Shown: positions 5,255-60,943 of the stretch, one piece after another
How positions within the stretch are numbered: the first letter of the stretch is position 1
Layout: each line of letters begins with the position of its first letter
Origin: Salipaludibacillus neizhouensis
Lineage (GTDB): Bacteria; Bacillota; Bacilli; Bacillales; Salisediminibacteriaceae
Direction of reading: 5' to 3'
Assembly (NCBI RefSeq): GCF_002886185.1
Contig: NZ_KZ614147.1
Location: 655,187 to 719,186 of the forward strand
DNA: 64,000 nucleotides
Notes under the pieces: model-generated
The model's input: only the letters and a program-made list of their open reading frames with translations
Database searches by the model: none
What the model was told of the DNA's origin: nothing
Translations under genes and position numbers: made by a program

Positions 5255-5582
5255 TAGAGACTGTTGTTTCCTTTCGAACAGAGGAGCTCGAATCCACTCT
5301 AGGCGGACGCTTTCCGCGGGCAATGCTTCAGCCTCCTCTAAGAAAAACGGCATAGCCGTCTTTTATTAAATACAGCGTGATCTTTTAGCCACCATCATTT
5401 AAGTATCAAGGGTGGGTTTCCCTTGATACTTGTGGCGTAAAGATAGCTGTCATCTTATACTTTCTTACCCTCGGACAAAGACCATCCTCCGGGGTCTTCA
5501 GCTATTGCTTTTCCCGCTGGAGTCGCCGCCTACGCTCTTTCGAGTTATTTCTTCGATAAATGAAAATCAACAAAGACGCTAC
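5255..5582. repeat. Family A1 repeat interrupted by a family B element
   Basis: The gap between the enoyl-CoA hydratase and the FadH-like gene is entirely repeat. The left part (5255-5338) has GTTGTTT, CGAACAGAGG, CTCGAATCC and GGCGGACGCTTTCCGCGGGC. The right part (5473-5580) has GGGGTCTTCAGC, TTTTCCCGCTGGAGTCGCCG and TTTCGAGTTATTT. Intact versions at 34710 and 44030 carry these halves next to each other, so the B element at 5339-5467 is an insertion. Confidence 0.85.
5339..5467 (+). repeat. Family B palindromic element, copy 1 (inserted in family A)
   Basis: The element runs from TAAGAAAAACGG to CTTTCTTA. It contains the small hairpin ACGGCATAGCCGT, then a long hairpin: ACAGC pairs with GCTGT, ATCTTTTAGCCAC with GTGGCGTAAAGAT, and GTATCAAGGG with CCCTTGATAC. 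It is flanked on the left by CCTC (5335-5338) and on the right by CCTC (5469-5472), one base past the end, which is a possible target duplication. Confidence 0.85.
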
Positions 5583-5589
5583 GCATTTT

Positions 5590-7518
5590 TTATAAAGCTC
5601 GTGCTAATACAGCGCCGTCGTATATTGCTTTTTTCGCATCTAATCCAAGTGCATCCTTGGCACCGCCGATAATATGCACCGGTTTACCTAGCTGAGTAAG
5701 TTTCTCAACCAAATCATTATTAGTCAGCTGTCCAGCTGCGAGAACAACGGTATCTGCTTTTATCATTTTCTTTTCGCCATCAAGCGTATACGTAACGGAA
5801 TGGGCATCTATACAGTGATAATGGTCGATTCCACCAATCATTTGGACGCCATTCTGCTTCATTTCCATGATCGTTGCCCACCGGGTTGTTTTGCCAATTC
5901 CTTTTGCAAACGACTTGCTTCGTTGTAAAAGCGTGATCGATGAGACGCCTTTTTCTTTTAAAAATAACGCTAAATCGCATGCAATACCGCCGCCACCAAT
6001 AATCACAACATTGTCACCAGTCTTCGCAGTTCCTTCAAAAACTTGACGGTAGGAAATAATATTAGGATCATTCACCCCATCAATTTCGGGTACACGGGGA
6101 ACGATACCTGTAGAAAGAATAATTTCATCCGCTTGGTTAATTAGTGGGTCTTCTCCAGTAAGGTGTGTTCCTAGCTTAACGGTGACACCTAGTAGCTTTA
6201 ATTGGATGCGGTAATAACGTAACGTTTCGTAGAATTCCTGTTTTCCCGGAATTCGTTTTGAATAATTGAGTTGACCGCCAATTTCATCTTTTTCATCTAC
6301 AATAGTGACAGAATGTCCGCGTTCAGCAGAAACTCGTGCTGTTTCTAATCCTGCAGGCCCTGCACCAATGATAAGAATGTTCTTCTTCGTTTTTGCTGGA
6401 ATCATGAGAAGTTCAGTTTCACGTCCTGCCTCTGGGTTTACGAGGCAAGTCGCAGCTTTTCCTTCAAAAACATGGTCAAGACAGGCTTGGTTACAGGCAA
6501 TACAAGTATTTACCTCGTCAAAACGACCTTCCCTTCCTTTTGTGACAATCGCAGGATCAGCTAAAAATGGACGGGCCATCGACACTAATTGAACTGTTCC
6601 TTTCTCAAGAATGTCATTTGCATCCTGCGGATCATTAATGCGATTGCTTGCTACCACGGGAATATCGACTTCTTGAGCAATTTTCTCAGCAACAGGTACG
6701 AATTTCATCCGTGGTACTTTCATTGAAATAGTAGGTACGCGAGATTCGTGCCAGCCAATCCCGATGTTGAGCAGATCTGCCCCAGCTTTCTCCACTCTTT
6801 TTGCAAAGTGAAGCGTTTCCATTTCAGTTGTGCTTCCTTCAATTAAATCAAGTCCTGACATGCGAAACAAAACAGGATAGTCGGGTCCAACCGTGCGACG
6901 GACAGCTTCGGTGATTTTCAAGGCAAATTGAAGTCTATTTTCAAATGAGCCACCCCAGTTGTCGGTCCGTTTATTGGTAACGGGGGAGAGGAATTGATTA
7001 ATAAGATATCCTTCCGAACCCATGATTTCCACGGCATCAAAGCCGGCGTCTTTCGCTCGGCGTGCGCCTTGGGCAAAGTCTTCAATCGTTCGTTTGATGT
7101 CTTCCTCGGTCATTTCCCTCGGTTGATCAGGGTTGATTGGTGATTGAAGAGGAGAGGGGGCAACCGGATCCAGTTGAGTACTCGCTTTATACGCATATCG
7201 GCCAGCATGAAATAATTGCAGGGCAATGGCGCCACCTTCGTCATGAACGCCTTGCGTCAACGGTTTCCATCGTTGAACATCCTCTTCTTCATAAATCGTC
7301 ATGAAGTCATGGCCACCGCTGCCTTCTGCATTCACAGCAGCACCACCCGTGACAATCAGACCAACATCATGTTTAGCCCGGAGCTTGTAAAACTCAGTCA
7401 GCTTTTCAATCCCGTTCTCAAGACCTTCAATTCCAACGTGCATCGAACCCATAATAACTCTGCTTCTCAAAGCTAAACCATTGATAGAAATCGGCTTAAA
7501 TAACGATTCGCAATGCAT
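5590..7518 (-). CDS. NADH:flavin oxidoreductase, 2,4-dienoyl-CoA reductase (FadH) type
   Basis: A 642-residue two-domain enzyme. The N-terminal part (about 1-340) is an old-yellow-enzyme-type FMN TIM barrel. A four-cysteine iron-sulfur motif follows (CIACNQACLDHVFEGKAATC region, about 340-365). The C-terminal part (about 380-640) binds FAD and NAD(P), with IIGAGPAGLETARV and a second GGGGIACDLALF motif. This architecture is that of bacterial 2,4-dienoyl-CoA reductase and trimethylamine dehydrogenase relatives. ATG 7518 has AAGGGGG at 8 bases; a TTG eight codons earlier lacks a ribosome binding site. A FadR-type operator overlaps its promoter, which supports a role in fatty acid oxidation. FadH activity is inferred; related enzymes have other substrates. 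Confidence 0.85.
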   Translation of the reverse strand: MHCESLFKPISINGLALRSRVIMGSMHVGIEGLENGIEKLTEFYKLRAKHDVGLIVTGGAAVNAEGSGGHDFMTIYEEEDVQRWKPLTQGVHDEGGAIALQLFHAGRYAYKASTQLDPVAPSPLQSPINPDQPREMTEEDIKRTIEDFAQGARRAKDAGFDAVEIMGSEGYLINQFLSPVTNKRTDNWGGSFENRLQFALKITEAVRRTVGPDYPVLFRMSGLDLIEGSTTEMETLHFAKRVEKAGADLLNIGIGWHESRVPTISMKVPRMKFVPVAEKIAQEVDIPVVASNRINDPQDANDILEKGTVQLVSMARPFLADPAIVTKGREGRFDEVNTCIACNQACLDHVFEGKAATCLVNPEAGRETELLMIPAKTKKNILIIGAGPAGLETARVSAERGHSVTIVDEKDEIGGQLNYSKRIPGKQEFYETLRYYRIQLKLLGVTVKLGTHLTGEDPLINQADEIILSTGIVPRVPEIDGVNDPNIISYRQVFEGTAKTGDNVVIIGGGGIACDLALFLKEKGVSSITLLQRSKSFAKGIGKTTRWATIMEMKQNGVQMIGGIDHYHCIDAHSVTYTLDGEKKMIKADTVVLAAGQLTNNDLVEKLTQLGKPVHIIGGAKDALGLDAKKAIYDGAVLARAL

Positions 7519-7588
7519 AAAATCCCCCTTAGATTTTGACAAGGTAAAGAAATAGTTGATTCTTTCCTTTTATTACGTTCGAATAAAA

Positions 7589-7606
7589 TGAGTGACTATT
7601 CATTCA
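7589..7606 (-). promoter_or_regulatory. FadR-type operator over the FadH-like gene promoter
   Basis: On the minus strand the site reads TGAATGAATAGTCACTCA, one mismatch from the Bacillus FadR consensus TGAATGAMTANTCATTCA. It starts inside a TATAAT -10 box (7606-7611, minus strand) that lies 18 bases from a TTGCAA -35, so bound repressor would cover the transcription start. Confidence 0.75.
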
Positions 7607-7635
7607 TTATACTGAAAAAAGGAAGAAGATTGCAA
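7606..7635 (-). promoter_or_regulatory. Sigma-A-like promoter for the FadH-like gene
   Basis: Minus-strand TTGCAA (7635-7630), an 18-base spacer and TATAAT (7611-7606), about 90 bases before the ATG at 7518. The remaining gap to pta (7636-7859) shows no other gene, only A/T-rich sequence that must hold the pta promoter, which I could not define. Confidence 0.55.
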
Positions 7636-7859
7636 TGAGAAGGAAGTATCGATTTGAAACAATCAGGATTTTTAAGATTGGAGAAGGAAGGGTATATTAA
7701 TAAAAGCTCCTTTTTAAAACGGATCATTTTCCTTATGATTGAAGGAAACGATTACACTTTTTGGAAAATTAGAACTTTAATTTGAAGCGCATGAATAATT
7801 TATTTTTACCTAAAGAAAGAGTATGCTAAAAGGTAGAGAGTATTAAAGGAGGTTTTCCT

Positions 7860-8837
7860 GTGAGCGATATGTTTAAAGGAATAGCAGAGGATGTAAAAGA
7901 CAAGAATCCAGCAATCGTTTTTCCCGAGGGAACAGATGAGAGAATATTAAAGGCAACGGTGCGGTTGCAAGCGGAAGGAATCTTGAAACCCATTCTGATT
8001 GGTAACAAAGAAGAAATTTTCTCGAAAGCTGCAAGTTTGAATCTTGAAGCAGACACACTTACTGTCATTGACCCTGAAACGTACGAGGAATTTGATGAAC
8101 TTGTGGAAGCATTTGTGAAACGTAGAAAAGGCAAAGCTACAAAAGAAGAGGCAGAAAAAATCTTGAAAACTCCAAATTATTTCGGAACAATGCTTGTTTA
8201 CGTTGGTAAAGCACTTGGGTTAGTTAGTGGGGCTGCTCACTCAACGGGCGATACGGTCCGTCCGGCACTTCAAATTATTAAAACAAAAGAAGGCGTGAAA
8301 AAGACGTCTGGCGTGTTCGTCATGGTTAAAGGAGATCAGCGTTATATATTTGGTGATTGTGCGATTAATATTTCGCCAGATAGTAATGACCTTGCTGAGA
8401 TCGCTGTCGAAGCCGCAAAAACGGCAAAAGTATTTGGTATCGATCCGAAAATAGCAATGCTTAGTTTTTCAACAAAAGGTTCTGCTGTTAGTCCTGAAAC
8501 AGAAAAAGTTATCGAGGCAACCAAGATCGTTCAAGAAAAAGCACCTCATCTTACCGTAGATGGTGAATTCCAATTCGACGCTGCATTTGTGCCATCTGTT
8601 GCGATGAAAAAAGCACCGGATTCTCCGCTTAAAGGAGAAGCAAATACATTTATCTTCCCGAATTTGGAATCTGGCAACATTGGCTATAAAATCGCCCAAC
8701 GATTAGGAGAGTTCGAAGCAATTGGTCCAATCCTCCAAGGGTTAAACCAACCGGTAAATGACCTTTCCAGAGGTTGTAATGAAGAAGATGTGTACAAGCT
8801 TGCACTTATTACAGCAATGCAAGGTGTGACAGAGTAA
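7860..8837 (+). CDS. pta: Phosphate acetyltransferase
   Basis: Pta (EutD-type) interconverts acetyl-CoA and acetyl phosphate in the overflow acetate pathway in the cytoplasm. The 325-residue length and the single PTA_PTB domain fit the short monodomain form of Bacillus. Recognisable segments are IVFPEGTDERIL (residues about 18-29), VSGAAHSTGDTVRPALQIIKT (about 121-141) and the C-terminal ANTFIFPNLESGNIGYKIAQRLG. The start is GTG 7860, with AAAGGAGGT at 7 bases; an ATG three codons on is less well placed. It is monocistronic with a very strong terminator. It stands between ywfI/hemQ and ywfL/lipL relatives, as in B. subtilis. Confidence 0.95.
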   Translation: MSDMFKGIAEDVKDKNPAIVFPEGTDERILKATVRLQAEGILKPILIGNKEEIFSKAASLNLEADTLTVIDPETYEEFDELVEAFVKRRKGKATKEEAEKILKTPNYFGTMLVYVGKALGLVSGAAHSTGDTVRPALQIIKTKEGVKKTSGVFVMVKGDQRYIFGDCAINISPDSNDLAEIAVEAAKTAKVFGIDPKIAMLSFSTKGSAVSPETEKVIEATKIVQEKAPHLTVDGEFQFDAAFVPSVAMKKAPDSPLKGEANTFIFPNLESGNIGYKIAQRLGEFEAIGPILQGLNQPVNDLSRGCNEEDVYKLALITAMQGVTE

Positions 8838-8843
8838 ATAGAG

Positions 8844-8892
8844 ACAAATAACCCCCGTCGGCGAGAGGCCGGCGGGGGTTATTTGTCTTTTT
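8844..8892 (+). terminator. Terminator of pta
   Basis: A long perfect hairpin with arms ACAAATAACCCCCG and CGGGGGTTATTTGT, an additional GGC/GCC pairing at the top, and a trailing CTTTTTG. It follows the pta stop by six bases. Confidence 0.9.
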
Positions 8893-8904
8893 GTGGTGGG
8901 CGTT

Positions 8905-9139
8905 CGTCATTTGTAGGTGGTAGGTGCTCCTGCGGTTACTCGTCGCAGAAAACATTGCTACCGGCGTAGCACCTACAAAAGTAGCAGGAAGAAAACGAGA
9001 GTATAAGCGAGGATGAAGGAGTTTGAGAAGCGGAAAATTCGGTAGGTGCTACCGGCGTAGCACCTACAAAAGTAGCAGGAAGAAAACGGGAGTATAAGCG
9101 AGGATGAGGGAGTTTGAGAAGGCGTTTTTCGCCGATCTT
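8905..9139. repeat. Family C repeats in 91-bp tandem units (array 1)
   Basis: The gap between pta and ligD holds a degenerate GTAGGTGCT, then two units starting at GCTACC 8957 and GCTACC 9048, exactly 91 bases apart. Each unit has the palindrome GCTACCGGCGTAGC inside GTAGGT/ACCTAC arms, then AAAAGTAGCAGGAAGAAAACG and a purine-rich tail ending in GGAGTTTGAGAA. The second unit stops at the ligD stop codon. Three more units of the same spacing lie at 52775-53000. Confidence 0.85.
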
Positions 9140-10969
9140 CTAAAACTCCCTCAACTTTTCTAAAACCTCCTTAAATGCTACTTCGTTATCAACATGGCGC
9201 ATCAATCGGAAAGGATCCCCTTCAATCGCAACTCGCTCAATGACTGCAGGGAGGGTAAACGAATAGGGAGTTAATCCCGAATCCACTTCAGGCCAGAAGA
9301 GGGGTGTAGCAATGAGTCCGGCTTCATGTCCTCGTGGGGAATAAGGAGTAATGATTGTCTTTCCTTTATCATGTTGAATGTAATCCAAGTACAGTCTATT
9401 ACCACGGTTCTTTTTCATTCGCTCGATCGTAAACCAATCGGCTTCCTGTTCACATAAAAATTTGCAGACGAACGAGGTAAATATGCGTGTGTCTTCATAG
9501 CTGAAAACACTTTCAGGTAATGGAATGTAAAGCTGAAGCCCCTTTCTGCCCGAAGTTTTTACGAATGATTCAAGCTGAAATTCATCAAATATCTCTTTCA
9601 TCCTCACTGCGGCTTCGACAGCCAAGGAAAATTCCTTCATAGAAGGCGGATCCAAATCCAAGACGATTTCAGTCGGATAACTAGTACCAATCGTTTCAAA
9701 CGGCGTATGAAATTCCAACGCTAGCTGGTTGCCTAGCCACAACAATGTTTCTAACTCGTTACAAATAATATAATCAATCTCGTCTATCGTTTCGGTTTGT
9801 ACAAAATCAGGCGCATAATCAGGAGAATTTTTTTGATAAAATAGCTCTCCATCGGCACCATGAGGGTATCGTATAACAGTTAAGAGACGATCCTTTAAAA
9901 ATGGTAAAAGATAAGGTGACATGTGTTGTAAATACAATAAATAGTCATCTTTATGGATCTCTTGTTCAGGCCAGACAGGTTTGTCGGGACTAGTAATGGG
10001 AACCGTTTCCGGAAGCGCAAAAAGCTGTTTCTCCATTTGCTTACGAGAACAGGAGGAAGGTTCTGTTTCAAATTGAAAGGAATGGAATCTTGGCTCGCGA
10101 AGATGCTTTCCGTCAAAATCAATGCAGGCAATATTTGCACACACAGATGGGGGGATGTGGAAACTACCGTCTGATTGTTTCACCCCGTTTTTCTGAAATA
10201 AAGTACGTAATGTTTTTTCCTCTTCCTCAGCCAAACCGTGTTTAAACTGGACAATGACCAGAAATTTTTCACCGTCATAAACGCCGCCATCAAAGTATCC
10301 GTTTTTAGGGTTATAAGTGGACAGCGCTACCGTAATCATCCGCCAGTGCTTTTTTTTCAGCCACTGTGTTGTACGTTTTCCACTTTCCCAAGTACTCGTT
10401 TTTCTTTTTGCGATTGCACCTTCGCCATGATAGACGACAATATTATGCCACAGTTCTTCCCAGTTTTTAAAAACTTCGATTGCTTGCAAACTGCGAGAAT
10501 CCTGCGCATCAACCTTATGAGGAAGATGAGTTTTTTTAAAAAAAGAAGACATCTGCTTTTTTCGGGATGGTAACGTTTTATTCCTTAGAGATTCTCCCTT
10601 AAGAGTTAAGACATCGAACGCAATATATTTGCAGGGAAAGGAAGCGGCATGTTTTGAAATGACATCTTTACTTTTCATCCGGCCACGGCGTTGCACCTCG
10701 GAGAATTTGCTGCGCCATGGATTAAGGAGAAATACAATTTCGCCATCGAGCGAAAGAGGGAGGAAGGGCTTCACTTCTTCATACATTTTTTCACAAAACT
10801 GAACAATCTCAGGGAAATTAGCATTTAAGTTTTTACCATTACGGCTAGATAATTCAGGTGTTTTTTCACGCCAATGCAGCAAACATCGAAATCCATCATA
10901 CTTCGCTTCATAAATCCACCCTGATGTTTCAGGAAACTCCTCGACAGGTGTTAATAACATTGGTTTCAC
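9140..10969 (-). CDS. ligD: ATP-dependent DNA ligase LigD (ligase plus polymerase domains)
   Basis: LigD works with Ku in bacterial non-homologous end joining. The 609-residue protein has the Bacillus order: the ligase domain first (about 1-300) with the nucleotidyl lysine motif KYDGFR (K23), then the primase-polymerase domain (about 310-600) with the metal-binding LDLDPP and the TSGRKGLQLYIPL segment. No 3'-phosphoesterase domain is seen, as in B. subtilis YkoU. The start is GTG, with AAAGGAGGT at 6 bases. It is divergent from ku, with a family B repeat between them. In B. subtilis these genes serve spore DNA repair under sigma-G and SpoVT; I could not define such a promoter here. Confidence 0.95.
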   Translation of the reverse strand: MKPMLLTPVEEFPETSGWIYEAKYDGFRCLLHWREKTPELSSRNGKNLNANFPEIVQFCEKMYEEVKPFLPLSLDGEIVFLLNPWRSKFSEVQRRGRMKSKDVISKHAASFPCKYIAFDVLTLKGESLRNKTLPSRKKQMSSFFKKTHLPHKVDAQDSRSLQAIEVFKNWEELWHNIVVYHGEGAIAKRKTSTWESGKRTTQWLKKKHWRMITVALSTYNPKNGYFDGGVYDGEKFLVIVQFKHGLAEEEEKTLRTLFQKNGVKQSDGSFHIPPSVCANIACIDFDGKHLREPRFHSFQFETEPSSCSRKQMEKQLFALPETVPITSPDKPVWPEQEIHKDDYLLYLQHMSPYLLPFLKDRLLTVIRYPHGADGELFYQKNSPDYAPDFVQTETIDEIDYIICNELETLLWLGNQLALEFHTPFETIGTSYPTEIVLDLDPPSMKEFSLAVEAAVRMKEIFDEFQLESFVKTSGRKGLQLYIPLPESVFSYEDTRIFTSFVCKFLCEQEADWFTIERMKKNRGNRLYLDYIQHDKGKTIITPYSPRGHEAGLIATPLFWPEVDSGLTPYSFTLPAVIERVAIEGDPFRLMRHVDNEVAFKEVLEKLREF

Positions 10970-11050
10970 GAAAAACCTCCTTTAGCATGATTATTTTTAA
11001 CAATTTCATAAGCAACCATGCATAAAAAACAGCAAAAACCTGCAAGTTAA

Positions 11051-11175
11051 TAAGAAAAACGGTATAGCCGTCTTTTATTAAATACAGCGTCAGCTTCCAC
11101 CGCTATCTTAGTATCAAGGGTGGGTTACCCTTGATACTTGCGGTGTGAAGGTAGCTGTCAATTTTATAAATTCTC
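11051..11175 (+). repeat. Family B palindromic element, copy 2 (between ligD and ku)
   Basis: Left end TAAGAAAAACGG with hairpin ACGGTATAGCCGT; the long hairpin has CTTCCACCGC pairing with GCGGTGTGAAG and GTATCAAGGG pairing with CCCTTGATAC; right end AGCTGTCAATTTTATAAATTC. Compared with copy 1, both arms of the lower stem have changed together (GCCAC/GTGGC to ACCGC/GCGGT). It fills most of the 343-base gap that must also hold the ligD and ku promoters. Confidence 0.85.
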
Positions 11176-11312
11176 TCTTTATAAAAGCGTAACCACTTTG
11201 AACATCAAAGCTGGTCGTGAAATTCGAATTTGCTAATTCCAGCACCTCTGTGGGAAGTAAATAACAGCTTGTTAGAAACCAGCATAAAAATATAAAAAGC
11301 AGGTGAATGTAC

Positions 11313-12173
11313 ATGCATACAATGTGGAAAGGAAGCATCAGCTTCGGATTAGTGAGTATACCGGTGAAACTCCACGCTGCAACAGAAAATAAAGATCTAA
11401 AATTGAGACAGCTTCATAAAGAGTGTCACACGCCAATTTCATATGAAAAAGTTTGTCCTGGCTGTGAAAAGGAAATAACAAACGATGATATCGTGAAGGC
11501 GTATGAGTATGAAAAAAATAAATTTGTCGTCTTGGATGACGAAGATTTAGAAAAGCTGAAGAAAGAAAACGATGATAAGTCCGTGGAAATTATTGATTTT
11601 GTAAAGCTTGAGGAAATCGACCCTATATATTTTGAAAAAAGCTATTTTCTTGCGCCGAACGATGGTGGAGGCAAGGCATATGCCTTGTTAAGAGAAGCTC
11701 TGAAAGACTCGGGAAAGATTGGTGTAGCTAAAATTATCATTCGTTCAAAAGAACAGCTTGCCGTTGTCCGTGTTTATGAAAATACCCTTCTTATGGAGAC
11801 GATTCACTTCCCGGATGAAGTAAGAGGAACGGGAGAATTACAGCTTCCAGATGATCAGAACGTCAGTAAAAAAGAATTGGATACGGCTCTTATGTTGATC
11901 AAACAATTAACGACTCCATTTGAAGCAGATAAGTATCATGATGAGTATCGTTCTGCTTTACTGGAATTAATTGAAGAGAAGCGTGCTGGTAAAGACACTG
12001 TCGAAGCAACCGATGCAAAGAAGCCGGCAGCTAAATCAAATGTTACCGATTTAATGTCAGCACTTCAGGCTTCGGTAGACAAAACGAGGAAGAAGCCAGG
12101 CAAAACGACAGCGAAGAAAAGAGCACCTGCAACGCCTAAGCCAAAAACCGGTAAAAGTAAGGGTGTTTCTTAA
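11313..12173 (+). CDS. ku: Non-homologous end-joining protein Ku
   Basis: Ku is the homodimeric DNA-end-binding partner of LigD. The 286-residue product starts MHTMWKGSISFGLV, the classic bacterial Ku N-terminus. It continues through the Ku core (to about residue 235) and ends in a Lys/Ala/Pro-rich tail (about 236-286, many K, A and T residues), like the lysine-rich extensions that increase DNA binding. ATG 11313 has AGGTG at 7 bases; ATG 11307 is too close to it. The stop codon TAA (12171-12173) is the first three bases of a family B element, so the very end of the protein may have been set by that insertion. Confidence 0.95.
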   Translation: MHTMWKGSISFGLVSIPVKLHAATENKDLKLRQLHKECHTPISYEKVCPGCEKEITNDDIVKAYEYEKNKFVVLDDEDLEKLKKENDDKSVEIIDFVKLEEIDPIYFEKSYFLAPNDGGGKAYALLREALKDSGKIGVAKIIIRSKEQLAVVRVYENTLLMETIHFPDEVRGTGELQLPDDQNVSKKELDTALMLIKQLTTPFEADKYHDEYRSALLELIEEKRAGKDTVEATDAKKPAAKSNVTDLMSALQASVDKTRKKPGKTTAKKRAPATPKPKTGKSKGVS

Positions 12174-12295
12174 GAAAAACGCGTAGCGTCTTTTCTTAAA
12201 TACATCGTTATCTTTCGCCACCATCATTTAAGTGTCAAGGGTGGGTTTCCCTTGACACGCGCGGCGTAAAGATAGCAGTCATACATTATTTCTTA
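12171..12295 (+). repeat. Family B palindromic element, copy 3 (overlaps the ku stop codon)
   Basis: It runs from TAAGAAAAACGC to TTTCTTA. The end hairpin is ACGCGTAGCGT in place of ACGGCATAGCCGT, and the upper stem is GTGTCAAGGG/CCCTTGACAC in place of GTATC.../...GATAC, so both arms have changed while pairing is kept. Confidence 0.85.
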
Positions 12296-12299
12296 AAAA

Positions 12300-15846: not shown

Positions 15847-15926
15847 AATTTGATCTCTCCTTTTCTCTTTAGATGATTAGTATAGCCCACTAAAGGATAA
15901 CATTCTAGAAGGACGGTTTAAATCTT

Positions 15927-15957
15927 TTAATAAAAGACGGCTATGCCGTTTTTCTTA
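15927..15957 (-). repeat. Truncated family B element (end hairpin only)
   Basis: Minus-strand TAAGAAAAACGG with the hairpin ACGGCATAGCCGT and CTTTTATTAAA; the long hairpin part is missing. It is flanked by ordinary A/T-rich DNA upstream of ywhD. Confidence 0.7.
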
Positions 15958-16937: not shown

Positions 16938-16984
16938 AAAGCAGACGAGGAGGGACCCCAATTCCCACTTCGTCTGTTTTTATA
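16938..16984. terminator. Second hairpin terminator upstream of the pbpG 3' end
   Basis: Arms CAGACGA and TCGTCTG with TTTTTAT following on the plus strand and AAAAAAG in front. It probably ends minus-strand transcripts from pbpG as well as any plus-strand readthrough. Confidence 0.65.
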
Positions 16985-16989
16985 GAGAT

Positions 16990-17119
16990 AAAAATTTATA
17001 AAATTGACAGCTATCTTTACGCCACACGCATCAAGGGAAGTTCGCCCCTGATGCTTAAATGATGGTGGCTTTAAAGATCACACTGTATTTAATAAAAGAC
17101 GGCTATGCCGTTTTTCTTA
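16990..17119 (-). repeat. Family B palindromic element, copy 4 (downstream of pbpG)
   Basis: On the minus strand it reads TAAGAAAAACGG, hairpin ACGGCATAGCCGT, then the long hairpin with GCATCA...TGATGC arms in place of GTATCA...TGATAC, and the end GACAGCT...TTGAC with AATTTTATAAATTT. Both arms have changed together again. Confidence 0.85.
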
Positions 17120-20349: not shown

Positions 20350-20877
20350 AGTCACCTCTTCTAATCTTTTTTTATATGTTATTTGAAGCACTTTAGAAAG
20401 CTTTGAGATAAAAATAGGCACGGATTCTTTTAAACAAGTACAAATACGTGATAAAGTAGTTTCTATTTTTGACTTCATGCAGTATACTTTTTCTGTTGGT
20501 TTTTAATTAGGAAAGCGATCAATTTTTTGAATCAATACTATTATACATGACTTTAGTGAAGGATAGCATATAAGAAAAACGGCATAGCCGCCAATTTTAA
20601 AATTCTTATCTTTTAAAAAGTGAAAGTGAACAGCACCATAATGAAGATCATTTAAGAGCGTATAATAAGATCTTGAACAATGTGAATGAGTATCGTTTCC
20701 TGCAAAATCAATGAAATAGTCAAGGCCATAAATCTCTGTTAACGTACATTTTTTCAAAACGGTAACTTATACGACCGAAAGCGGTAGCCAATAGACGGAC
20801 AGTCCATAGACTTTCAGCGTCAGGCCAACTATAAAAACGAAACTAACAGAGCTAACAATATAATGAGGTGAAAGTTA
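20350..20877. other. Intergenic region between the RsbR-like gene and speE
   Basis: A 528-base gap with no convincing gene. It holds the presumed divergent promoters and one miniature family B element (20571-20608). Open frames here are short and start without ribosome binding sites. The last 60 bases lead into the GAGGTG of speE. Confidence 0.6.
20571..20608 (+). repeat. Miniature family B element (internal deletion)
   Basis: TAAGAAAAACGGCATAGCCG is joined directly to CCAATTTTAAAATTCTTA. Both element ends are kept but the long hairpin is gone, leaving 38 bases. This helps to fix the two true ends of family B. Confidence 0.75.
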
Positions 20878-27510: not shown

Positions 27511-28704
27511 TTATAAATAGAGGGAGACTGCGGAAGCGATTTTTTCTTTCAAACGCTCGAACAACGTTCTCTTATTGATAGTATTCATCGTAATCGGTTC
27601 TGCACTTTCATAATAATCCTTTTCAATTTCTTCTTTAACTGGTTTGATCCAATCTTTATCCGATATCACAGTGTTTATTTCCTTATTTATATGAAAGCTT
27701 CGTTTATCGATATTAGCCGTGCCGATAAACATGAGGCGTTCATCTACGGTGACAACTTTTGCATGATAAAATCCCTCATAAAATTGACGAAACTCTACTC
27801 CAACATCTAAAAGCTCCGGCATATAAGGAAAGGCGGCATCTTTTACAAGAGGATGATCCGGATATTTAGGAATAAGAATTTGAATTTTCACGCCTCTTTT
27901 TGCAAGTGAGACAAGTTTGTTCTTTAGCCTTTCTCCTGGAATAAAGTAAGGCGTCCCTATAAACACAGAAAATTGAGCGTCTTCAAGGACATCATCTATG
28001 ATGTGTTCTAGATGGGCGCCATTCGTGGAAAATATCCGCATCGGAATTGTGTCTTCAGGGGAAGTAAGGTAAAGTGTCTTTTCAAAATCAACGGATTCAC
28101 CGGAAGCCTCGTTCCAGTCAGCAAAAAAACATTGTTGCAAGTCTGCTACACCTGCTCCCTCGAGAAACATGTGATAATCTCGCCATCGTCCCTTTTTGGG
28201 ATCACGCCCTAAATATTCATCTCCAACATTATAACCGCCAACGTAACCATATTTCCCATCAATAACGACAATTTTTCGGTGATTTCTCTCATTGATAGAG
28301 TAGAACAAGAAAGGAAAAGAGGGAGCGTTTAACTTTTCAAATTGAACTCCCGCTTTTTTAAGTGATTTTTGTTCCTTTCTTGAAATGCTATGGGCCAACC
28401 AATCGACAGTTAGTCGAACCGTGACACCTTTCTTGGCACTTTCTTTTAATTCATGAATTAGTTTTTTCCCAATATTATCATCGCGGAAAATATAAAATTG
28501 CATATGAATATGATCGGTAGCTTTTTCAGTTTGCTGCAAAAGGTGATCAAGCCATTTGTCACCTTGCGTAAAAAACTGTACATTGCTTTGTTTATATAAA
28601 GTGTTTTCCATTGGCGTTATTTTGGAACGATGCCGTTTCAACCCGAAAAAGAGATCCAAACAAATCCAAACAATGAGTAAGAATGGTATCAAGAGAAGTT
28701 TCAT
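27511..28704 (-). CDS. Cardiolipin synthase family protein (YwiE-like)
   Basis: A 397-residue phospholipase D superfamily enzyme that joins two phosphatidylglycerols to cardiolipin at the membrane. One N-terminal membrane segment (about residues 3-20) replaces the usual two, as in minor cardiolipin synthases such as B. subtilis YwiE. Both HKD motifs are present: NHRKIVVIDGKYGYVGGYN and YHAKVVTVDERLMFIGTANID. The start ATG has GGGG at about 8 bases. The position just before fadF (ywjF) agrees with ywiE in B. subtilis. A family B/C repeat begins 19 bases upstream of the start and must lie in or close to the promoter. Confidence 0.9.
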   Translation of the reverse strand: MKLLLIPFLLIVWICLDLFFGLKRHRSKITPMENTLYKQSNVQFFTQGDKWLDHLLQQTEKATDHIHMQFYIFRDDNIGKKLIHELKESAKKGVTVRLTVDWLAHSISRKEQKSLKKAGVQFEKLNAPSFPFLFYSINERNHRKIVVIDGKYGYVGGYNVGDEYLGRDPKKGRWRDYHMFLEGAGVADLQQCFFADWNEASGESVDFEKTLYLTSPEDTIPMRIFSTNGAHLEHIIDDVLEDAQFSVFIGTPYFIPGERLKNKLVSLAKRGVKIQILIPKYPDHPLVKDAAFPYMPELLDVGVEFRQFYEGFYHAKVVTVDERLMFIGTANIDKRSFHINKEINTVISDKDWIKPVKEEIEKDYYESAEPITMNTINKRTLFERLKEKIASAVSLYL

Positions 28705-28722
28705 AAGATTGCCCCTTTTTTA

Positions 28723-28879
28723 AAAGATAATTTATATAATTGGCAGCTACCTTCACACCGCGCGTATCAAGGAAAGCCCACCCTCCTATCGAGTAGCACC
28801 TACACGCACTACGTAGGTGCTACTCGGGGCGGTGGAAGCTGACGCTGTAGTTAATAAAAGACGCTACGCGTTTTTCTTA
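28723..28879 (-). repeat. Family B element with nested family C palindrome, copy 5
   Basis: On the plus strand: TTGGCAGCTACCTTCACACC, GCGTATCAAGG, then ATCGAGTAGCACCTACACG...CGTAGGTGCTACTCGGGG, then GGCGGTGGAAGC, GACGCTGTAGTTAATAAAAG and the end hairpin ACGCTACGCGT with TTTTTCTTA. The upper hairpin of B has been replaced by family C. It lies between cls and fadF. Confidence 0.85.
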
Positions 28880-34680: not shown

Positions 34681-34699
34681 TTGATAAATAAAGACTATA

Positions 34700-35108
34700 G
34701 CTTGTAGTTTAATTCGAACGAGAGGTGCTCGAATCCGCTCTAGGCGGACGCTTTCCGCGGGCAATGCTTCAGCCTCCTTGGGAAAGTTCGTCCCTGCAGG
34801 GTCTTCAGCTATTGCTTTTCCCGCAGGAGTCGCCGCCTTCGCTTCTTCGAGTTATTTGTTCAAAAAAAGAAACTTCATCAATCCAGACAGCCTTTCTAAA
34901 AGGTTGGTGTTTAATTGCTTTTTCAAGTCCAGAGAGAATAACAGTTACGTATACTGCCTTTATAAAAAATTATTGTTTGGAAGAATCCGCGAGACTCCTG
35001 TGGAAGAATGAGCCAAGCGAGACCCCGCAGAGCGTTCGTTTGCTCGAGGAGGCTCGCGGATCATCCACGGAAAGCGAGCGGTAATTCTTCCAAACAACCT
35101 TTACGAAA
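34700..35108. repeat. Family A repeat, complete copy (A1 plus A2) between two acyl-CoA dehydrogenases
   Basis: A1 (about 34705-34865) has TCGAATCCGCTCTAGGCGG, ACGCTTTCCGCGGGCAATGC, CTTCAGCCTCC, GGGTCTTCAGC, CCCGCAGGAGTCGCCGCC and TTCGAGTTATTT. A2 (about 34972-35100) is bounded by the inverted ends TTGTTTGGAAGAATCCGC and GCGGTAATTCTTCCAAACAA and contains GCGAGACCCCGCAGAGCG. The same pair is at 44025-44345. Open frames across it are repeat artefacts. Confidence 0.85.
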
Positions 35109-41614: not shown

Positions 41615-41618
41615 GTGA

Positions 41619-41774
41619 TAAGAATTAATAAAATTGGCAGCTACCTTTACACCTCGCGTATCAAGGGAAAATTACCTCCTTTCGAGTAGCACCTACACGC
41701 ATTACGTAGGTGCTACTCGGGGTGGCGAAAGATAATGCTGTATTTAATAAAAGACGGCTGTGCCGTTTTTCTTA
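41619..41774 (-). repeat. Family B element with nested family C palindrome, copy 6
   Basis: Plus strand: TAAGAATTAATAAAATTGGC, AGCTACCTTTACACC, GCGTATCAAGGG, ACCTCCTTTCGAGTAGCACC, TACGTAGGTGCTACTCGGGG, GGTGGCGAAAGA, AATGCTGTATTTAATAAAAG, hairpin ACGGCTGTGCCGT and TTTTTCTTA. Same organisation as the copies at 28723 and 60774. The rest of the 807-base rpoE-pyrG gap holds A/T-rich DNA and the pyrG control region. Confidence 0.85.
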
Positions 41775-43981: not shown

Positions 43982-44023
43982 AAAAACTGGTCAGAAGAGA
44001 AAATCTCTTCCGGCCAGTTTTTG
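43982..44023 (+). terminator. Terminator of pyrG
   Basis: Arms AAAAACTGG, GAAGAG and CTCTTC, CCAGTTTTT with a small internal mismatch; it overlaps the base after the stop codon. Confidence 0.9.
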
Positions 44024-44024
44024 T

Positions 44025-44345
44025 TTCGAACAGAGGATTCGAATCCGCTCTAGGCGGACGCTTTCCGCGGGCAATGCTTCAGTCTCCTCGGGAAAGTTCG
44101 TCCCTGTGGGGTCTTCAGCTATTGCTATTCCAGCTGGAGTCGCCGCCTTCGATACTTCGATCTTTTTCAGAAACAATAACAATTACGTAAAATACTTTAT
44201 AAAAAACTGTTGTTTGGAAGAATCCGCGAGACTCCTGTGGAAGAATGATCCAAGCGAGACCCCGCAGAGCGTTCGTTTGCTCAAGGAGGCTCGCTTGATC
44301 ATCCACGGAAAGCGAGCGGTAATTCTTCCAAACAACCATCGATGA
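44025..44345. repeat. Family A repeat, complete copy (A1 plus A2) between pyrG and ywjG
   Basis: A1 (44028-44168) and A2 (44212-44338) have the same organisation as at 34700-35108, including the inverted A2 ends TTGTTTGGAAGAATCCGC and GCGGTAATTCTTCCAAACAA. Only about 40 bases separate A1 and A2 here, against about 105 there. Confidence 0.85.
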
Positions 44346-49164: not shown

Positions 49165-49756
49165 CAAAAACCAAGCGGCTTTTGTTTAAATTAGTTCCTA
49201 ACCCTGGATAGTTGAAAGCTCGAAGTTGCAAAAACGCTGCCCACGGAAGGCGGCCGCCTGGAGCGGATTCGAGCTTCTCTATTCAATGAAAACAACAATC
49301 TCTAAAAGACCGATTATTTTATAAATTCTTATCTTGTGGGAAAAACGCATAGCCTCTCTTACTTAAAATAGCTGCTTTCGTAAATCTTGTTCCTTTTGTA
49401 CTTCACGGGGATTAGGCAAGCATATGTTAACGGAAAAACCTGATTTCCTAATCGGTAAAGGGAATTTGATTCTTCTTGAACAAAGGTTACTTTCAGCGAA
49501 ATTAGAAATTAGGCCCTTGTCTTCTAAGGGAATCTGTGCTTAGATAAGGGGTATGCAAGAAATAATGAACGACACCGTTATTATCCCAATAGGAACGAAT
49601 CAAATTTTACCTCAGGTTGCTTCAATTCTAACTTCTGATTTAACACCCTCATAAAATCAATATTACAATATGCTATTTTTCAATATAATCAGATGAAGAC
49701 GGTATTTCGAATCCTTATTAAATTGTGCAAAACGAATAAAGAAAAGGTGTGATCGC
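49165..49756. other. murAB-rho intergenic region with a family A1 fragment
   Basis: 592 bases without a gene. In B. subtilis glpX (ywjI) lies here; no trace of it is seen. A minus-strand family A1 fragment is at about 49223-49305 (reverse complement GCTCGAATCCGCTCCAGGCGG). Family B-like scraps (TTTATAAATTCTTATC and GGGAAAAACGCATAGC) are at 49319-49360. The last 300 bases are the probable rho leader, with TAGGCCCTTGTC...GATAAGGGG as a weak stem. Confidence 0.55.
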
Positions 49757-51236: not shown

Positions 51237-51298
51237 TTCGTAATGTGTGATACTGTAACTCTGTTTCGAAAGATTCAGGGCGGAAGGAGATGAAAAGC

Positions 51299-52615: not shown

Positions 52616-52627
52616 AGATAGAAAAAC

Positions 52628-52668
52628 TTGAAGTGGCGAAAGCTCACACTGTATATAATAAAAGAAAG
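52628..52668 (-). repeat. Family B remnant
   Basis: GTGGCGAAAGCTCACACTGTA and TATAATAAAAG match the element-end side of family B (compare GTGGCTTTAAAGATCACACTG at 17066). The end hairpin is replaced by an unrelated AAAGTC/GACTTT stem. Confidence 0.5.
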
Positions 52669-52749: not shown

Positions 52750-53000
52750 AAAGAGTTTAGAGGTTGAAAAAGGTGTAGGTGCTACCGCAGTAGCACCTAC
52801 AAAAGTAGCAGGTCGAAAACGAGAGAATAGGCGAGGATAAAAGAGTTTAGAGGTTAAAAAAAGAGGTAGGTGCTACCGGCGTAGCACCTACAAAAGTAGC
52901 ACGTTGAAAACGAGAGCATAGGCGAGTATAAGGGAGTTTAAAAGTCGAAAAAAGAGGTAGGTGCTACCTTAGTAGCACGTTGAAAACGAAAGAAAAAGCG
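52750..53000. repeat. Family C repeats in 91-bp tandem units (array 2)
   Basis: Three units with GCTACC at 52781, 52872 and 52963, exactly 91 bases apart. Each begins with a GTAGGTGCTAC/GTAGCACCTAC palindrome followed by AAAAGTAGCA, GAAAACGAGAG, an AGGCGAG motif and GAGTTTA. The third is truncated after its first arm. The unit is about four-fifths identical by eye to those at 8957 and 9048. The rest of the 650-base gap (53001-53227) shows nothing definable apart from the leader of the lipoprotein gene. Confidence 0.85.
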
Positions 53001-53890: not shown

Positions 53891-53905
53891 AATAAAGTCA
53901 AAAAG

Positions 53906-53977
53906 AAAAAAGACCAATTTCAAGTCGACGATTCATGATTCTTCGTCCTTGGAATTGGTCTTTTTAAAGAGATAAGT
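53906..53977. terminator. Bidirectional terminator between the lipoprotein gene and the CoA-disulfide reductase-like gene
   Basis: Arms AAAAAGACCAATT and AATTGGTCTTTTT with further pairing inside (CGACG/CTTCG region) and a 10-base loop. Confidence 0.85.
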
Positions 53978-53998
53978 TGAAAGCTGAGAGTTTTTTTC

Positions 53999-56891: not shown

Positions 56892-56958
56892 GTAGGAAAA
56901 ACGAGCAAACAGTTATAACTCGCCTCGAACACAGCCATCCACCAAAAAGATTAACCGA

Positions 56959-56987
56959 TTGCTTTTAACGAGAAGAGACCCTATAAT
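56959..56987 (+). promoter_or_regulatory. Sigma-A promoter of prfA-prmC
   Basis: TTGCTT, a 17-base spacer and a perfect TATAAT, 41 bases before the prfA start. Confidence 0.7.
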
Positions 56988-57028
56988 ATAGAAAGACTAT
57001 AATGAGTTATTAAAATGAGGTGAAGAAT

Positions 57029-58102: not shown

Positions 58103-58971
58103 TGACAACCAAAGTATACGAAGCCCTCAACTGGGCTTCTTCTTTTTTAGAAGAACATCATTACGAAGCACAAATCGCACACATACTCTTGCAACACCAC
58201 ACAGGCTGGAATCGAACCAAGCTGCTTACCGAGCTCCAAGCCCAACTCGACACACAAACAATCGAGAAATTCACAGCAGATGTTCACCAGGCAGCAGCAG
58301 GCAAACCCGTCCAACATATCACAGGTAACGAAACCTTCTATGGCCGAAGCTACATCGTCAATCAACACGTTCTAATACCCCGGCCAGAAACCGAAGAACT
58401 CGTCGAGAAAATACTCGAAACGATCCCAACATTCTTCGGGGAAACAGAAGCCGCAAACCTGACAATCGTGGACGTCGGAACCGGAAGTGGCATCATCGCC
58501 ACCTCCTTGAAGCTGGAACACCCTCAATCGCGCGTTCTTGCATCGGATATATCCTTCGAAGCCCTCGCTGTCGCGAAAAAGAATGCGTCCGAACTAGGGG
58601 CAAATTTGGACTTCTTCGAGGGAGACCTTTTACAGCCTCTTATTGAAGCTGGAGAACAGGCTTCGATTATCGTGTCCAATCCCCCCTATATACCAGAGGG
58701 GGACCGAGACTCTATGAAAGAGAACGTCAAAGATCACGAACCAGAAGGAGCCCTTTTCGCCGGAAAAGATGGACTAACAATTTATCGTCGTCTCATAAAA
58801 CAGTTGCCAGCCGTACTGAAAACACCCGGTATGATTGCTTTTGAAATTGGCCACGGCCAAGGAGAAGACGTCAAGAAATTATTATCCACAGAATATCCAC
58901 AAGCACAAATCGAAGTCATCAACGATATCAACAACAAACAGCGCATTGTCTTGGCCGCAATACGAACCTAG
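58102..58971 (+). CDS. prmC: Release factor glutamine methyltransferase PrmC
   Basis: PrmC (HemK) methylates the GGQ glutamine of release factors using S-adenosylmethionine. The 289-residue protein has an N-terminal helical domain (about 1-80), the SAM-binding loop VDVGTGSGIIATSL (about 128-141), and the catalytic NPPY in IIVSNPPYIPEGDRD (about 190-204). It overlaps prfA by one base (TAATG). Codon usage in the prfA-prmC stretch is richer in C-ending codons than in neighbouring genes. A perfect DnaA box (58882-58890) falls inside the gene by chance or otherwise. Confidence 0.96.
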   Translation: MTTKVYEALNWASSFLEEHHYEAQIAHILLQHHTGWNRTKLLTELQAQLDTQTIEKFTADVHQAAAGKPVQHITGNETFYGRSYIVNQHVLIPRPETEELVEKILETIPTFFGETEAANLTIVDVGTGSGIIATSLKLEHPQSRVLASDISFEALAVAKKNASELGANLDFFEGDLLQPLIEAGEQASIIVSNPPYIPEGDRDSMKENVKDHEPEGALFAGKDGLTIYRRLIKQLPAVLKTPGMIAFEIGHGQGEDVKKLLSTEYPQAQIEVINDINNKQRIVLAAIRT

Positions 58972-59427
58972 TAACGAAAACGTAATGGAGACCTTTTTTT
59001 CTAGAGGGGTCTGTTTTGGGATTCTAAAAGCTAAGCCGTAGTTTGAATAAAGACGTTAAATTACTAATTAATCCACATATAATGAACACATGAAAAAGCA
59101 TCTGATTCCGATCAGGTGCTTTTTAGTCATATGATTTTACAAATAGAGGTGATATTTTAATAGACATTCTTTTTTGATAAAATAAAAGAAACAGGTTGCA
59201 GTGGTGCATTATCGCAATTTAACCTAATCCTTCATATAGAAATAGAAAAAAGAAACCCCCGCATTATTAAAAATGGATAGCATCAGATAGCTTGATATAG
59301 TACATTTATTAGAGAGATGTAACAATTAATTTTGTATTTAAATTCAAATCCTTCAATAAATGCATGAACTTTCGCTAGGATTGTTATGACATAGAAGGAT
59401 ATCTTGTGTTATGAAGGAGACCTATGA
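58972..59427. other. Intergenic region between prmC and the alditol oxidase gene
   Basis: 456 bases. It contains a terminator (59093-59124) and then about 300 bases of A/T-rich DNA with no credible gene or repeat. Confidence 0.55.
59093..59126 (+). terminator. Terminator downstream of prmC
   Basis: Arms AAAAAGCATCTGAT and ATCAGGTGCTTTTT around TCCG. Confidence 0.9.
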
Positions 59428-60687
59428 ATGAAAGAGCAACGAAATTGGGCAGGTAATTATAAATACAGTGCAGACGAGCTACATATCCCGGAAAACATAG
59501 AACAAATACAACAATTGGTGACTCGCTGCAATAGTATGAGGGTACTTGGTACACGACACTCGTTTAATGGAATTGCTGATCACACGGAGAACCTAATCTC
59601 ACTTGAAAATTTCAACCAGGTGCTGGGATTAGACTCTGAGCGTCGAACGGTTACCGTCGAAGCGGGAATTAAATACAGTGATCTTTGCAGGTATCTTCAC
59701 CGAAAAGGATACGCACTTGAAAATATGGCTTCACTGCCGCACATTTCAGTTGCTGGTGCTTGTGCAACAGCAACACATGGTTCGGGTGATCAGAATAGAG
59801 GACTGGCCACATCCGTAAGTGCCATGGAAATCGTTAGTTCCGATGGAGATGTTATAGAATTCTCGAGGGAACGATCTGAAGAACAAATGAATGGCGCGGT
59901 TGTTGGACTCGGCGGAGCAGGGGTGGTAACTACCCTGACACTTGATGTGGTTCCGTCCTATAATATTAGACAGGACGTTTATGAAAATTTAGCTCTGTCT
60001 CATCTTAAAAATCATTTTGATGATATTTTCTCAAGCGCCTATAGTGTTAGTCTATTCACTGACTGGAAAGACGAGACATTTAACCAAGTTTGGCTTAAAA
60101 GTCTCTCAACAGAGCAAAGTACATTTGAATTAGGACCTGAGTTTTTTGGTGCGAAGGCAGCATCAAAGAATTTGCACCCTGTGCCAGGTTCCGGTACGGA
60201 GAATTGCACAGAACAGATGGGTATTCCAGGACCATGGCTTGAACGATTATCGCACTTCCGCATGGACTTCACACCAAGTCACGGAAAAGAGCTGCAAAGT
60301 GAATACATCGTGCCCCGTGAGCACGCATATGATGCATTATGTGCAATCAGTCAAATTCGTGAGCAAATTGCTCCACTTCTTTTCATATCTGAGACTCGCA
60401 CCATTGCTCAGGATGATCTGTGGATGAGCCCATGTTACAAACAAGAATCAGTGGCATTCCACTTTACTTGGAAAGATGATTGGGAATCGGTTCAGAAAGT
60501 GTTGCCGAAAATGGAAGAGCAACTTGCACCATTCCTTGCGCGCCCTCATTGGGGGAAACTGTTTACGATGCCTTCCACTCGAGTGCAATCTCTCTATGAG
60601 AAGCTGCCAGATTTTCAACAGTTGCTTCAACACTATGATCCTAAAGGGAAATTCCGAAACAAATACTTGAACACATATATCTTCTAG
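59428..60687 (+). CDS. FAD-binding oxidase of the alditol/xylitol oxidase type
   Basis: A 419-residue flavoenzyme of the VAO family. The N-terminal FAD-binding domain has RVLGTRHSFNGIAD, where H44 matches the histidine that holds FAD covalently in Streptomyces alditol oxidase, then NMASLPHISVAGACATATHGSGDQN (about residues 101-125). The substrate domain has SLFTDWKDETFNQVWLK and the C-terminal RPHWGKLF. Alditol oxidases turn polyols such as xylitol or sorbitol into aldoses with release of hydrogen peroxide. A TTATGAAGGAGACC region precedes the ATG. It stands between prmC and spoIIR, which are close neighbours in B. subtilis, so it looks like an inserted accessory gene. The exact substrate is not known. 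Confidence 0.85.
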   Translation: MKEQRNWAGNYKYSADELHIPENIEQIQQLVTRCNSMRVLGTRHSFNGIADHTENLISLENFNQVLGLDSERRTVTVEAGIKYSDLCRYLHRKGYALENMASLPHISVAGACATATHGSGDQNRGLATSVSAMEIVSSDGDVIEFSRERSEEQMNGAVVGLGGAGVVTTLTLDVVPSYNIRQDVYENLALSHLKNHFDDIFSSAYSVSLFTDWKDETFNQVWLKSLSTEQSTFELGPEFFGAKAASKNLHPVPGSGTENCTEQMGIPGPWLERLSHFRMDFTPSHGKELQSEYIVPREHAYDALCAISQIREQIAPLLFISETRTIAQDDLWMSPCYKQESVAFHFTWKDDWESVQKVLPKMEEQLAPFLARPHWGKLFTMPSTRVQSLYEKLPDFQQLLQHYDPKGKFRNKYLNTYIF

Positions 60688-60773
60688 TGATCAGAAATGT
60701 AATATAAGGGCATTGAAAAAGTGAAAAACACTTTATCAATGTCCTTAAGAACGTTTCAGGTTAGAAACTAATT

Positions 60774-60943
60774 TAAAGAAAAGACGCTACGCGTTTTGTT
60801 TAGAAAAGGCAACTACCTTCAGCCGCACGTAGCAAGGAAGATCACCTCCTTTCGAGTAGCACCTACACACACTTCGTAGGTGCTACTCGGGGCGGCAGAA
60901 GCTAACGTTGCAATTAAGAAAAGGCGCTACGCGTCTTTTCTTA
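60774..60943 (+). repeat. Family B element with nested family C palindrome, copy 7 (two end hairpins)
   Basis: Starts TAAAGAAAAGACGCTACGCG and ends GGCGCTACGCGTCTTTTCTTA, so an ACGC..GCGT hairpin is present at both ends. Inside are GGCAACTACCTTCAGCCGC, GATCACCTCCTTTC, GAGTAGCACCTACACA...TTCGTAGGTGCTACTC, GGGGCGGCAGAAGC and AACGTTGCAATTAAG. It lies between the alditol oxidase gene and spoIIR and fills most of that 336-base gap. Confidence 0.85.

Follow-up and report, generated by a model that had tools for sequence, protein, structure and literature searches.

The stretch of DNA analysed here, called the window below, comprises 64,000 nucleotides of the genome of Salipaludibacillus neizhouensis (assembly GCF_002886185.1, contig NZ_KZ614147.1, positions 655,187 to 719,186, forward strand) and contains copies of a dispersed, structured repeat, family B, which looks like a parasitic mobile element and not like a working RNA. 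Family B copies have defined ends, lie directly behind a terminator in about half of the cases, carry no detectable target-site duplication and are oriented with respect to replication; their stems covary, and the rarest changes among the copies show no preference with regard to stems. The family had been reported in a preliminary description of the window. The observations made there were confirmed as a whole, and the interpretation was supported in part: the dispersed structured family stood, and the points concerning orientation, ends and an RNA module were corrected or supplemented.

Architecture and copy number of family B

The element is approximately 130-160 bases long, and no protein is encoded within it, in agreement with the earlier remark that no transposase was seen. 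Read in the direction in which the copies B1-B3 were first described, it consists of an end hairpin (TAAGAAAAACGGC-ATA-GCCGTCTTTTATTA), the helices P1 (ACAGC..GCTGT and ATCTTT..AAAGAT), P2 (GCCAC..GTGGC) and P3 (GTATCAAGGG..CCCTTGATAC with the loop TGGGTTT) and, after P3, the AU-rich tail TTATAAATTCTTATCT. In the long form of the element the 5′ arm of P3 is replaced by a separate hairpin of 15 pairs. The reverse of this direction is here termed 'active'; in it the element starts with nnAGATAAGAATTTATAA, continues with the folded core P1/P2/P3 and the small hairpin and ends with TTTTTCTTA. Folding of the B1 core as DNA gave z-scores of -7.0 for the plus strand and -6.4 for the minus strand, with none of 200 shuffled sequences being as good. 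A subterminal hairpin is clear at the hairpin end, and by eye it is visible at the AU-rich end in a single subfamily. The end hairpin resembles a terminator that works in both directions. In one copy (L207) the core, as read from the sequence, has changed to a long and almost perfect palindrome, which is what correction by template switching might produce.

The short and long forms together amount to at least 171 distinct copies in the host genome (5.5 Mb in 11 contigs, the largest being C1), this number being what was left of 184 after the removal of copies below 60 bits and of duplicates. This probably underestimates the true copy number, since only a fraction of the candidates was scored in the searches: blastn of one short copy against the host genome gave at least 52 matches (40 of 330 candidates scored) and blastn of one long copy at least 47 (40 of 324 candidates scored), while the RNA model found a match in all of the 150 candidates scored, which were the best of 3597. 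Truncated and tandem copies occur as well. One short copy had no match in a collection of 72,556 plasmids, and one long copy had none in the same plasmid collection or in a phage collection. When the whole window was compared with Rfam at the gathering cut-off, no family was found on the element, the only match being an L31-Firmicutes ribosomal protein leader (RF03156) elsewhere, at 51259-51289. At E<=1, no plausible family was obtained for seven loci, where the matches with low E-values lay mainly on long hairpins beside the element.

Insertion behind terminators

A terminator was called where a hairpin had a folding energy of at most -8 kcal/mol, computed with RNA folding parameters, and at least 6 of the final 12 bases were T. 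Seen in the 'active' direction, a terminator directly precedes the element in 96 of 171 copies, compared with 8/171 on the far side and 29/404 at random places in the same loci. The preceding hairpin is of the element's own type in 26 of the 171, as in arrays, and the upstream gene points toward the element in 130 of them.

Clean left ends were available for 137 of the 171 copies, clean right ends for 61 and both for 52; in another comparison, copies without clean end motifs were likewise removed and 28 loci were kept. At the junction TTTTYTTA is followed by nnAGATAAGAATTTATAA, and the other end of the element is TTTTTCTTA; the target therefore resembles the element's own end. The motif 5′ of the insertion that matches the right end is present in the host genome (61 copies). 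On the complementary strand the same 61 of 171 copies read TTCTTATCT, two variable bases, T (64%), A (82%), A (98%) and an A-rich run, and the A-rich block beyond this element end belongs to the target. In the 52 copies with two clean ends a target-site duplication was not detectable, the observed value being about equal to the shuffled one. Due to the TTA in the target, a TAA stop codon, its complement, survives for convergent genes: among 74 left-hand plus-strand open reading frames (ORFs), called by a simple script and not taken from annotation, 22 end exactly on the TAA of the element and a further 21 end at a distance of -1 to 10 bases from it. Orthologous empty sites within the genus were considered for comparison and set aside, as their flanks, being 64-81% identical, are too diverged for a comparison of the intergenic site.

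Orientation relative to replication

Of the 110 copies on C1, 97 have the orientation that prevails in their replication half, the direction of replication being inferred from gene orientation. Genes in the same loci are approximately 72% co-directional, and the bias of the copies exceeds this gene baseline (p 4e-5); the rule is kept by 20 of the 23 copies that have an opposed neighbouring gene (p 6e-9). The same holds in G025, a second copy-rich genome, of another genus, in which 50 of 52 copies follow a split half a genome apart; in a longer list for C1 of that genome, with the same split, 65 of 71 copies follow it, against a gene baseline of 0.695 from 31 loci (p 8e-6). These p-values are somewhat optimistic, because the split points were fitted to the copies. 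The earlier statement that copies occur in both orientations holds for the window, with three copies on the plus and four on the minus strand, but it hides this strong genome-wide rule.

Covariation of the stems

The arm swaps that had been quoted as changing together (ACGGC..GCCGT and the others) are present in the alignment of copies. In 27 sequences from four genera, 92.3% of the pair cells are standard, and sliding the partners against each other drops pairing to 32-46%; the covariation score was 0.149, compared with 0.077 in shuffles, none of 500 of which reached the observed value. A lack of covariation beyond phylogeny had been named as the result that would overturn the idea that pairing is kept while sequence changes. 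In a tree-aware test used as a substitute for R-scape, compensatory change went beyond phylogeny: 16 branches carry a simultaneous two-sided change ending in a standard pair, and the null obtained from rate-matched unpaired columns had a mean of 2.4 and a maximum of 9, with 0 of 2000 replicates reaching 16. The tree comprised 95 host copies, after removal of duplicates and of short copies below 80 bits, and 31 of 32 G025 copies, after removal of matches below 45 bits. The foot of the end hairpin covaries even in single copies (L010, L072, L023), in which TAAC/GTTA and TTACT/AGTAA stand for the common TAAG..ATTA.

The youngest changes behave differently. Changes found in only 1-2 of the same 95 host copies hit 99 of 7075 sites in stems versus 73 of 4814 unpaired sites (p 0.64), with rates of 0.011 to 0.018 per single helix. 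Since rare changes are thus alike in stems and loops, the youngest changes show no filter for pairing. The 93 pairs that they affect became Watson-Crick in 11 cases, G-T in 19, A-C in 14 and other combinations in 49, so that 63 of 93 are non-standard when G-T is counted as a pair. G-T and A-C mispairs are about equally frequent, and therefore neither strand is favoured as RNA.

Distribution in other genomes

Among the 80 matches listed for a window protein, the best named one (77%) is from Salipaludibacillus sp. CUR1. In a sample of relatives, query R1 matched 6 of 60 genomes including the host, and it matched none of the seven other genomes of the same genus. In a sample of the order, query R2 matched at least 4 of 299 genomes, again including the host; this is a lower bound, as the best 10 candidates were scored per genome, and G025 is not among the genomes shown. 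G025 itself has at least 72 matches, and two of three genomes searched in its genus have none. Relatives of the element were obtained at E-values of 6e-6 to 3e-4 in G084 and G075, which belong to other families; as read from the sequence, the order of the helices is the same there and the stem sequences differ, several copies keeping the TGGGTTT loop. When two diverged G075 loci were folded, L367 showed the architecture and L363 did not. G017, G010, G008 and G032 have the same helix order with more change. Presence is thus very uneven between genomes, as expected of a mobile element. In G084 the sequence GCGAAGC stands on both sides of the core at three loci (L361, L365, L369); GCGAAGC forms an unusually stable mini-hairpin in single-stranded DNA.

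Proposed mechanism and candidate enzymes

Terminator targeting, strand bias and the absence of a detectable duplication together suggest that family B moves as single-stranded DNA, mobilised in trans by a Y1 enzyme of the IS200/IS605 or RAYT type. A non-autonomous element that inserts as a single strand into the lagging-strand template and is moved by such an enzyme is, on balance, regarded as the probable explanation. IS200/IS605 transposons, as described in the accessible part of PMC6006769, use the lagging-strand template, and a hairpin near each of their ends is bound; a guide sequence 5′ of the hairpin selects the cut sites by pairing with tetranucleotides in the left flank and at the right end. 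In the case of family B, the Y1-type enzyme would act on the single-stranded DNA of the lagging-strand template and would recognise a hairpin, a T tract and YTTA, a combination that describes the 3′ end of the element and the shape of an intrinsic terminator alike. The element would be joined directly behind the hairpin, T tract and YTTA so recognised, and each insertion would leave a new terminator-like end, by which arrays would build up. Two words that can pair with TTA, namely TAAG following the left junction and TAAT preceding the end hairpin, may act as guide sequences, and YTTA is present at both places that match the cut sites of IS200/IS605. The terms 'guide', as applied to TAAG/TAAT, 'class C', as applied to the reverse transcriptases (RTs) discussed below, and 'SINE-like' (after the short interspersed nuclear elements, SINEs) were chosen in the present analysis.

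The search for a partner enzyme covered the Y1 and RVT_1 families. RAYT-like Y1 proteins are encoded in both copy-rich genomes, the host and G025, and an RT in the host only; therefore a Y1 enzyme in trans is tentatively favoured. The best Y1 matches in the host and in G025 (2.8e-14 and 2.0e-17) are far weaker than those of IS200-like proteins elsewhere (about 1e-40). Three candidates were rejected. A Y1 gene as the linked partner was discarded, as the one place, of the nine examined, that has an AU-rich end in front of it is linked to family C, a second repeat described below; the Y1 subfamilies of copy-bearing genomes proved too broad to be a diagnostic marker; and an RT as partner was dropped, none being present in the copy-rich G025.

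Several findings weigh against an explanation by single-strand insertion and a Y1 enzyme. With respect to the insertion site, 75 of 171 copies fail the terminator rule, and the diverged relatives in G017 and G084 read as being without a conserved TTA at the junction. Copy B1 has to be regarded as an exception, because its insertion site is not a terminator and its edges, judged by eye, permit a repeat of 3-4 bases. With respect to the enzyme, the four Y1 proteins tested scored 58.8-78.1 bits versus a curated RAYT cut-off of 80, and a Y1 gene bracketed by both element ends as one unit was found at none of the nine places listed (five in the host, four in G025). Only L258 has the AU-rich end beside a Y1 gene, joined there to family C, and the end hairpin on its far side is a separate short unit beyond two other ORFs. 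Y1 genes are also present in G002, in which no copy was found, and the hairpin that IS200/IS605 would lead one to expect at the AU-rich end is limited, by eye, to the one subfamily. With respect to structure, neither the count of pairs with two-sided change (61/500 shuffles) nor that of further pair types (497/500) was significant in the 27 sequences. In the 95 host copies the minor-allele frequency, in columns with a major allele of >=90%, is 0.022 in stems versus 0.043 elsewhere. Changes per column amount to 3.63 in paired versus 7.85 in unpaired columns at the tree tips and to 0.88 versus 3.12 on internal branches, and pairing was kept in 20 of 46 internal-branch changes versus 80 of 233 tip changes (p 0.24), which is no excess. 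As for selection on structure in resident copies, the rarest changes show none, while minor alleles taken together and tip changes are fewer in stems. From this one genome we infer that structure matters more for the lineages that keep spreading than for resident copies.

Alternative explanations

A SINE-like origin is unlikely, although it is the alternative that survives best. On this view, an RNA of the element, which finishes with the element's own terminator hairpin and a U tract, serves at terminators as the template for the RT of a group II intron; the intron would itself insert behind terminators, on the lagging-strand template. The same two target rules are followed by bacterial class C group II introns, as stated in the part of PMC8919778 that was accessible. 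The host genome contains three RT genes (L133, L142 and L147) with frames of 474 amino acids that are 95.5-99.3% alike in DNA and that we infer to be of class C, and the layout of the ends, a terminator after a terminator, fits priming at the T tract. However, G025, with its at least 72 matches, is without an RVT_1 match at E<=0.001, no motif of the element occurs in the three RT loci, and a fourth locus, L152, holds only two words that resemble the end hairpin with one mismatch each. Moreover, no intron ends were seen by eye, and the balance of G-T and A-C mispairs favours no RNA strand. L142 has in addition a partial tandem copy.

The idea of a classical miniature inverted-repeat transposable element (MITE), cut and pasted by a DDE transposase acting on inverted TAAGAA/TTCTTA ends, is distinctly improbable. 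The short inverted ends that had been reported are indeed present, the size, copy number and location are MITE-like, and the edges of B1 would allow a short repeat. With no detectable duplication in 52 copies, however, the ends are less like those of a classical DDE MITE, and both the strong replication-strand bias and the targeting of terminators speak against this mode of movement. In bcr1, a repeat of the Bacillus cereus group, the ends carry a duplication.

Equally doubtful is a structured RNA of benefit to the host, or a 3′-untranslated region or bidirectional terminator module, which is kept by selection at each site. The covarying structure agrees with such a function; stems carry about half the minor-allele frequency of other columns, tip changes are fewer in paired columns, the share of changes that keep pairing is no larger on internal branches than at the tips, and a convergent gene often takes its stop codon from the end hairpin, which is similar to a two-way terminator. 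On the other hand, changes present in one or two copies are equally frequent in stems and elsewhere, and about two thirds of the pairs they affect are non-standard, none of seven other genomes of the genus has a match, no Rfam family was found under the two settings given above, and truncated and tandem copies exist. The structured RNA module that had been offered as an alternative in the preliminary description is thereby weakened: its covarying structure stands, but rare changes hit stems and loops alike and no RNA strand is favoured. Still less probable is template switching between terminator hairpins during lagging-strand synthesis, with no dedicated enzyme; the strand rule, the terminator rule and the near-perfect palindrome in L207 agree with it, but the AU-rich end is common to units with different interiors and presence is very uneven among the species of one genus.

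Family B copies in the window

All seven copies, B1 to B7, were confirmed by sequence at the positions reported for them. On the plus strand, the short-form copy B1 (5339..5469) sits inside a copy of family C, for which the uninterrupted family C copies at 34696 and 44006 provide a natural empty site for comparison. B2 (11051..11180, short form, ACCGC/GCGGT subfamily) and B3 (12171..12296, short form, GTGTC/GACAC subfamily, followed by an A tract) have right edges that are uncertain by a few bases. The TAA of B3 (12171-12173) is the stop codon of ORF 11307-12173, and the claim that all copies are intergenic, which otherwise holds, has to be refined for this copy. On the minus strand, B4 (16984..17119, short form, GCATC/GATGC subfamily) follows the T tract GTCTGTTTTTATA. 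The remaining three copies are of the long form with the extra hairpin CCGAGTAGCACCTACG..CGTGTAGGTGCTACTCG: B5 (28722..28879) follows GCCCCTTTTTT in an unusual context near the start of ORF 27511-28704, B6 (41615..41774) follows GCGCTTTTTTT, and B7 (60800..60943) follows an end hairpin of the same type. This adjoining hairpin (60770..60803, minus strand, as read from the sequence) is either the target hairpin or a remnant of an earlier copy.

Fragments had likewise been mentioned, and besides the end hairpin next to B7 five of them were located. They are a minimal element of end hairpin and AU-rich end without a core (20571..20611, plus strand), an end hairpin alone (15926..15957, minus strand), the AU-rich end motif TTATAAATTCTTATCT adjoining a family C fragment (49319..49334, plus strand), the long form's extra hairpin standing alone (2222..2273, no strand assigned) and a weak partial copy of the end-hairpin and P1 region (52632..52665, minus strand).

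Seemingly exchangeable interiors and repeat family C

The host genome contains 84 occurrences of the AU-rich motif when one mismatch is allowed, compared with 2 of a reversed-pattern control. Twenty regions were taken for AU-rich motifs outside the scored copies. Several of these turned out to be diverged or truncated family B copies; in others the motif adjoins family C (L255, L256, L266, L267), a hairpin of another kind (L257) or, with no core, the end hairpin itself (L260, L261, L265). Because the AU-rich end adjoins different interiors, the ends look constant and the interior exchangeable. Family C (GCTCTAGGCGGACGCTTTCCGCGGGC...), found in the window at 5255-5337 plus 5480-5550, 34696-34857, 44006-44167 and 49238-49280, has the AU-rich end in common with family B and does not have the end hairpin, which suggests a mobilisation system shared by the two families.

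At L258:1268-2182 a RAYT-like Y1 gene is preceded by a terminator, an AU-rich end and the beginning of a family C copy, and this unit is a candidate for an autonomous family C element. Repeats of 96-100% identity (CTTTATAAAAAATTATTGTTTGGAAGAATCC...) lie downstream of family C copies at 34958-35099 and 44195-44337. A 116-base repeat is present as two tandem pairs, with a spacing of 91 bases, at 8956-9162 and 52780-52986.

Comparison with known systems

Several genera, and some members of two other families, show this architecture with different stem sequences. It is conceivable, though rather unlikely, that family B represents a distinct class of terminator-hopping elements in Bacillaceae and neighbouring families, in which a folded module carries an end that imitates an intrinsic terminator, terminators serve as targets and insertions make new ones; in its boldest version it would be an RNA-templated bacterial SINE depending on a terminator-targeting RT. 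One small element here joins a covarying structure, the use of terminators as safe landing sites and a replication-strand bias, and it offers a concrete system for how non-coding repeats pick harmless sites. The system would also help to tell a structure required for movement from one required by the host; the two are readily confused if covariation alone is accepted as proof of a functional RNA. A literature search, in which few subscription papers were covered, yielded no description of such a family, the accessible parts of PMC3446304, PMC3733652, PMC2267715, PMC8919778, PMC6006769 and PMC10969869 included.

Family B resembles IS200/IS605 derivatives in the lagging-strand bias, the lack of a detected duplication, the hairpin near the end and the likeness of the right-end bases to the target, as far as these are described in the available portion of PMC6006769. 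It differs from them in its target, a terminator hairpin with a T tract, in its large structured core and in the absence of a transposase between family B ends at the nine Y1 places of the host and G025. With REP sequences and REPINs it has in common short palindromes, high copy number, arrays and the presence of RAYT-like genes in both copy-rich genomes; the foot of its end hairpin holds CGTC, as does one REP superfamily according to the title of PMC3733652, a likeness by description only. Unlike a REPIN, family B does not look like two inverted REPs, a single end hairpin being seen, and no RAYT-like gene among the nine Y1 places is flanked by both ends. As with class C group II introns, insertions lie just after rho-independent terminators and in the lagging-strand template (PMC8919778, accessible part), whereas family B has no ORF, measures approximately 130-160 bases and matched no intron family in Rfam, neither at the gathering cut-off in the window nor at E<=1 in seven loci.

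Other small repeats were compared by description only. The repeats BOX, RUP and SPRITE of Streptococcus pneumoniae are structured and cluster, SPRITE being terminator-like, and their descriptions in the accessible part of PMC10969869 mention neither insertion behind terminators nor a replication-strand rule. The intergenic repeats bcr1-bcr3 of the Bacillus cereus group, termed MITE-like in PMC3446304, are similar to family B in forming stem-loops and in their length, which is 147-167 bp according to a table in PMC2267715. Bhal-1 of B. halodurans, known to us by its description and not by its sequence, has 74 nt and 36 copies according to the accessible part of PMC2267715 and could be a relative of family B.

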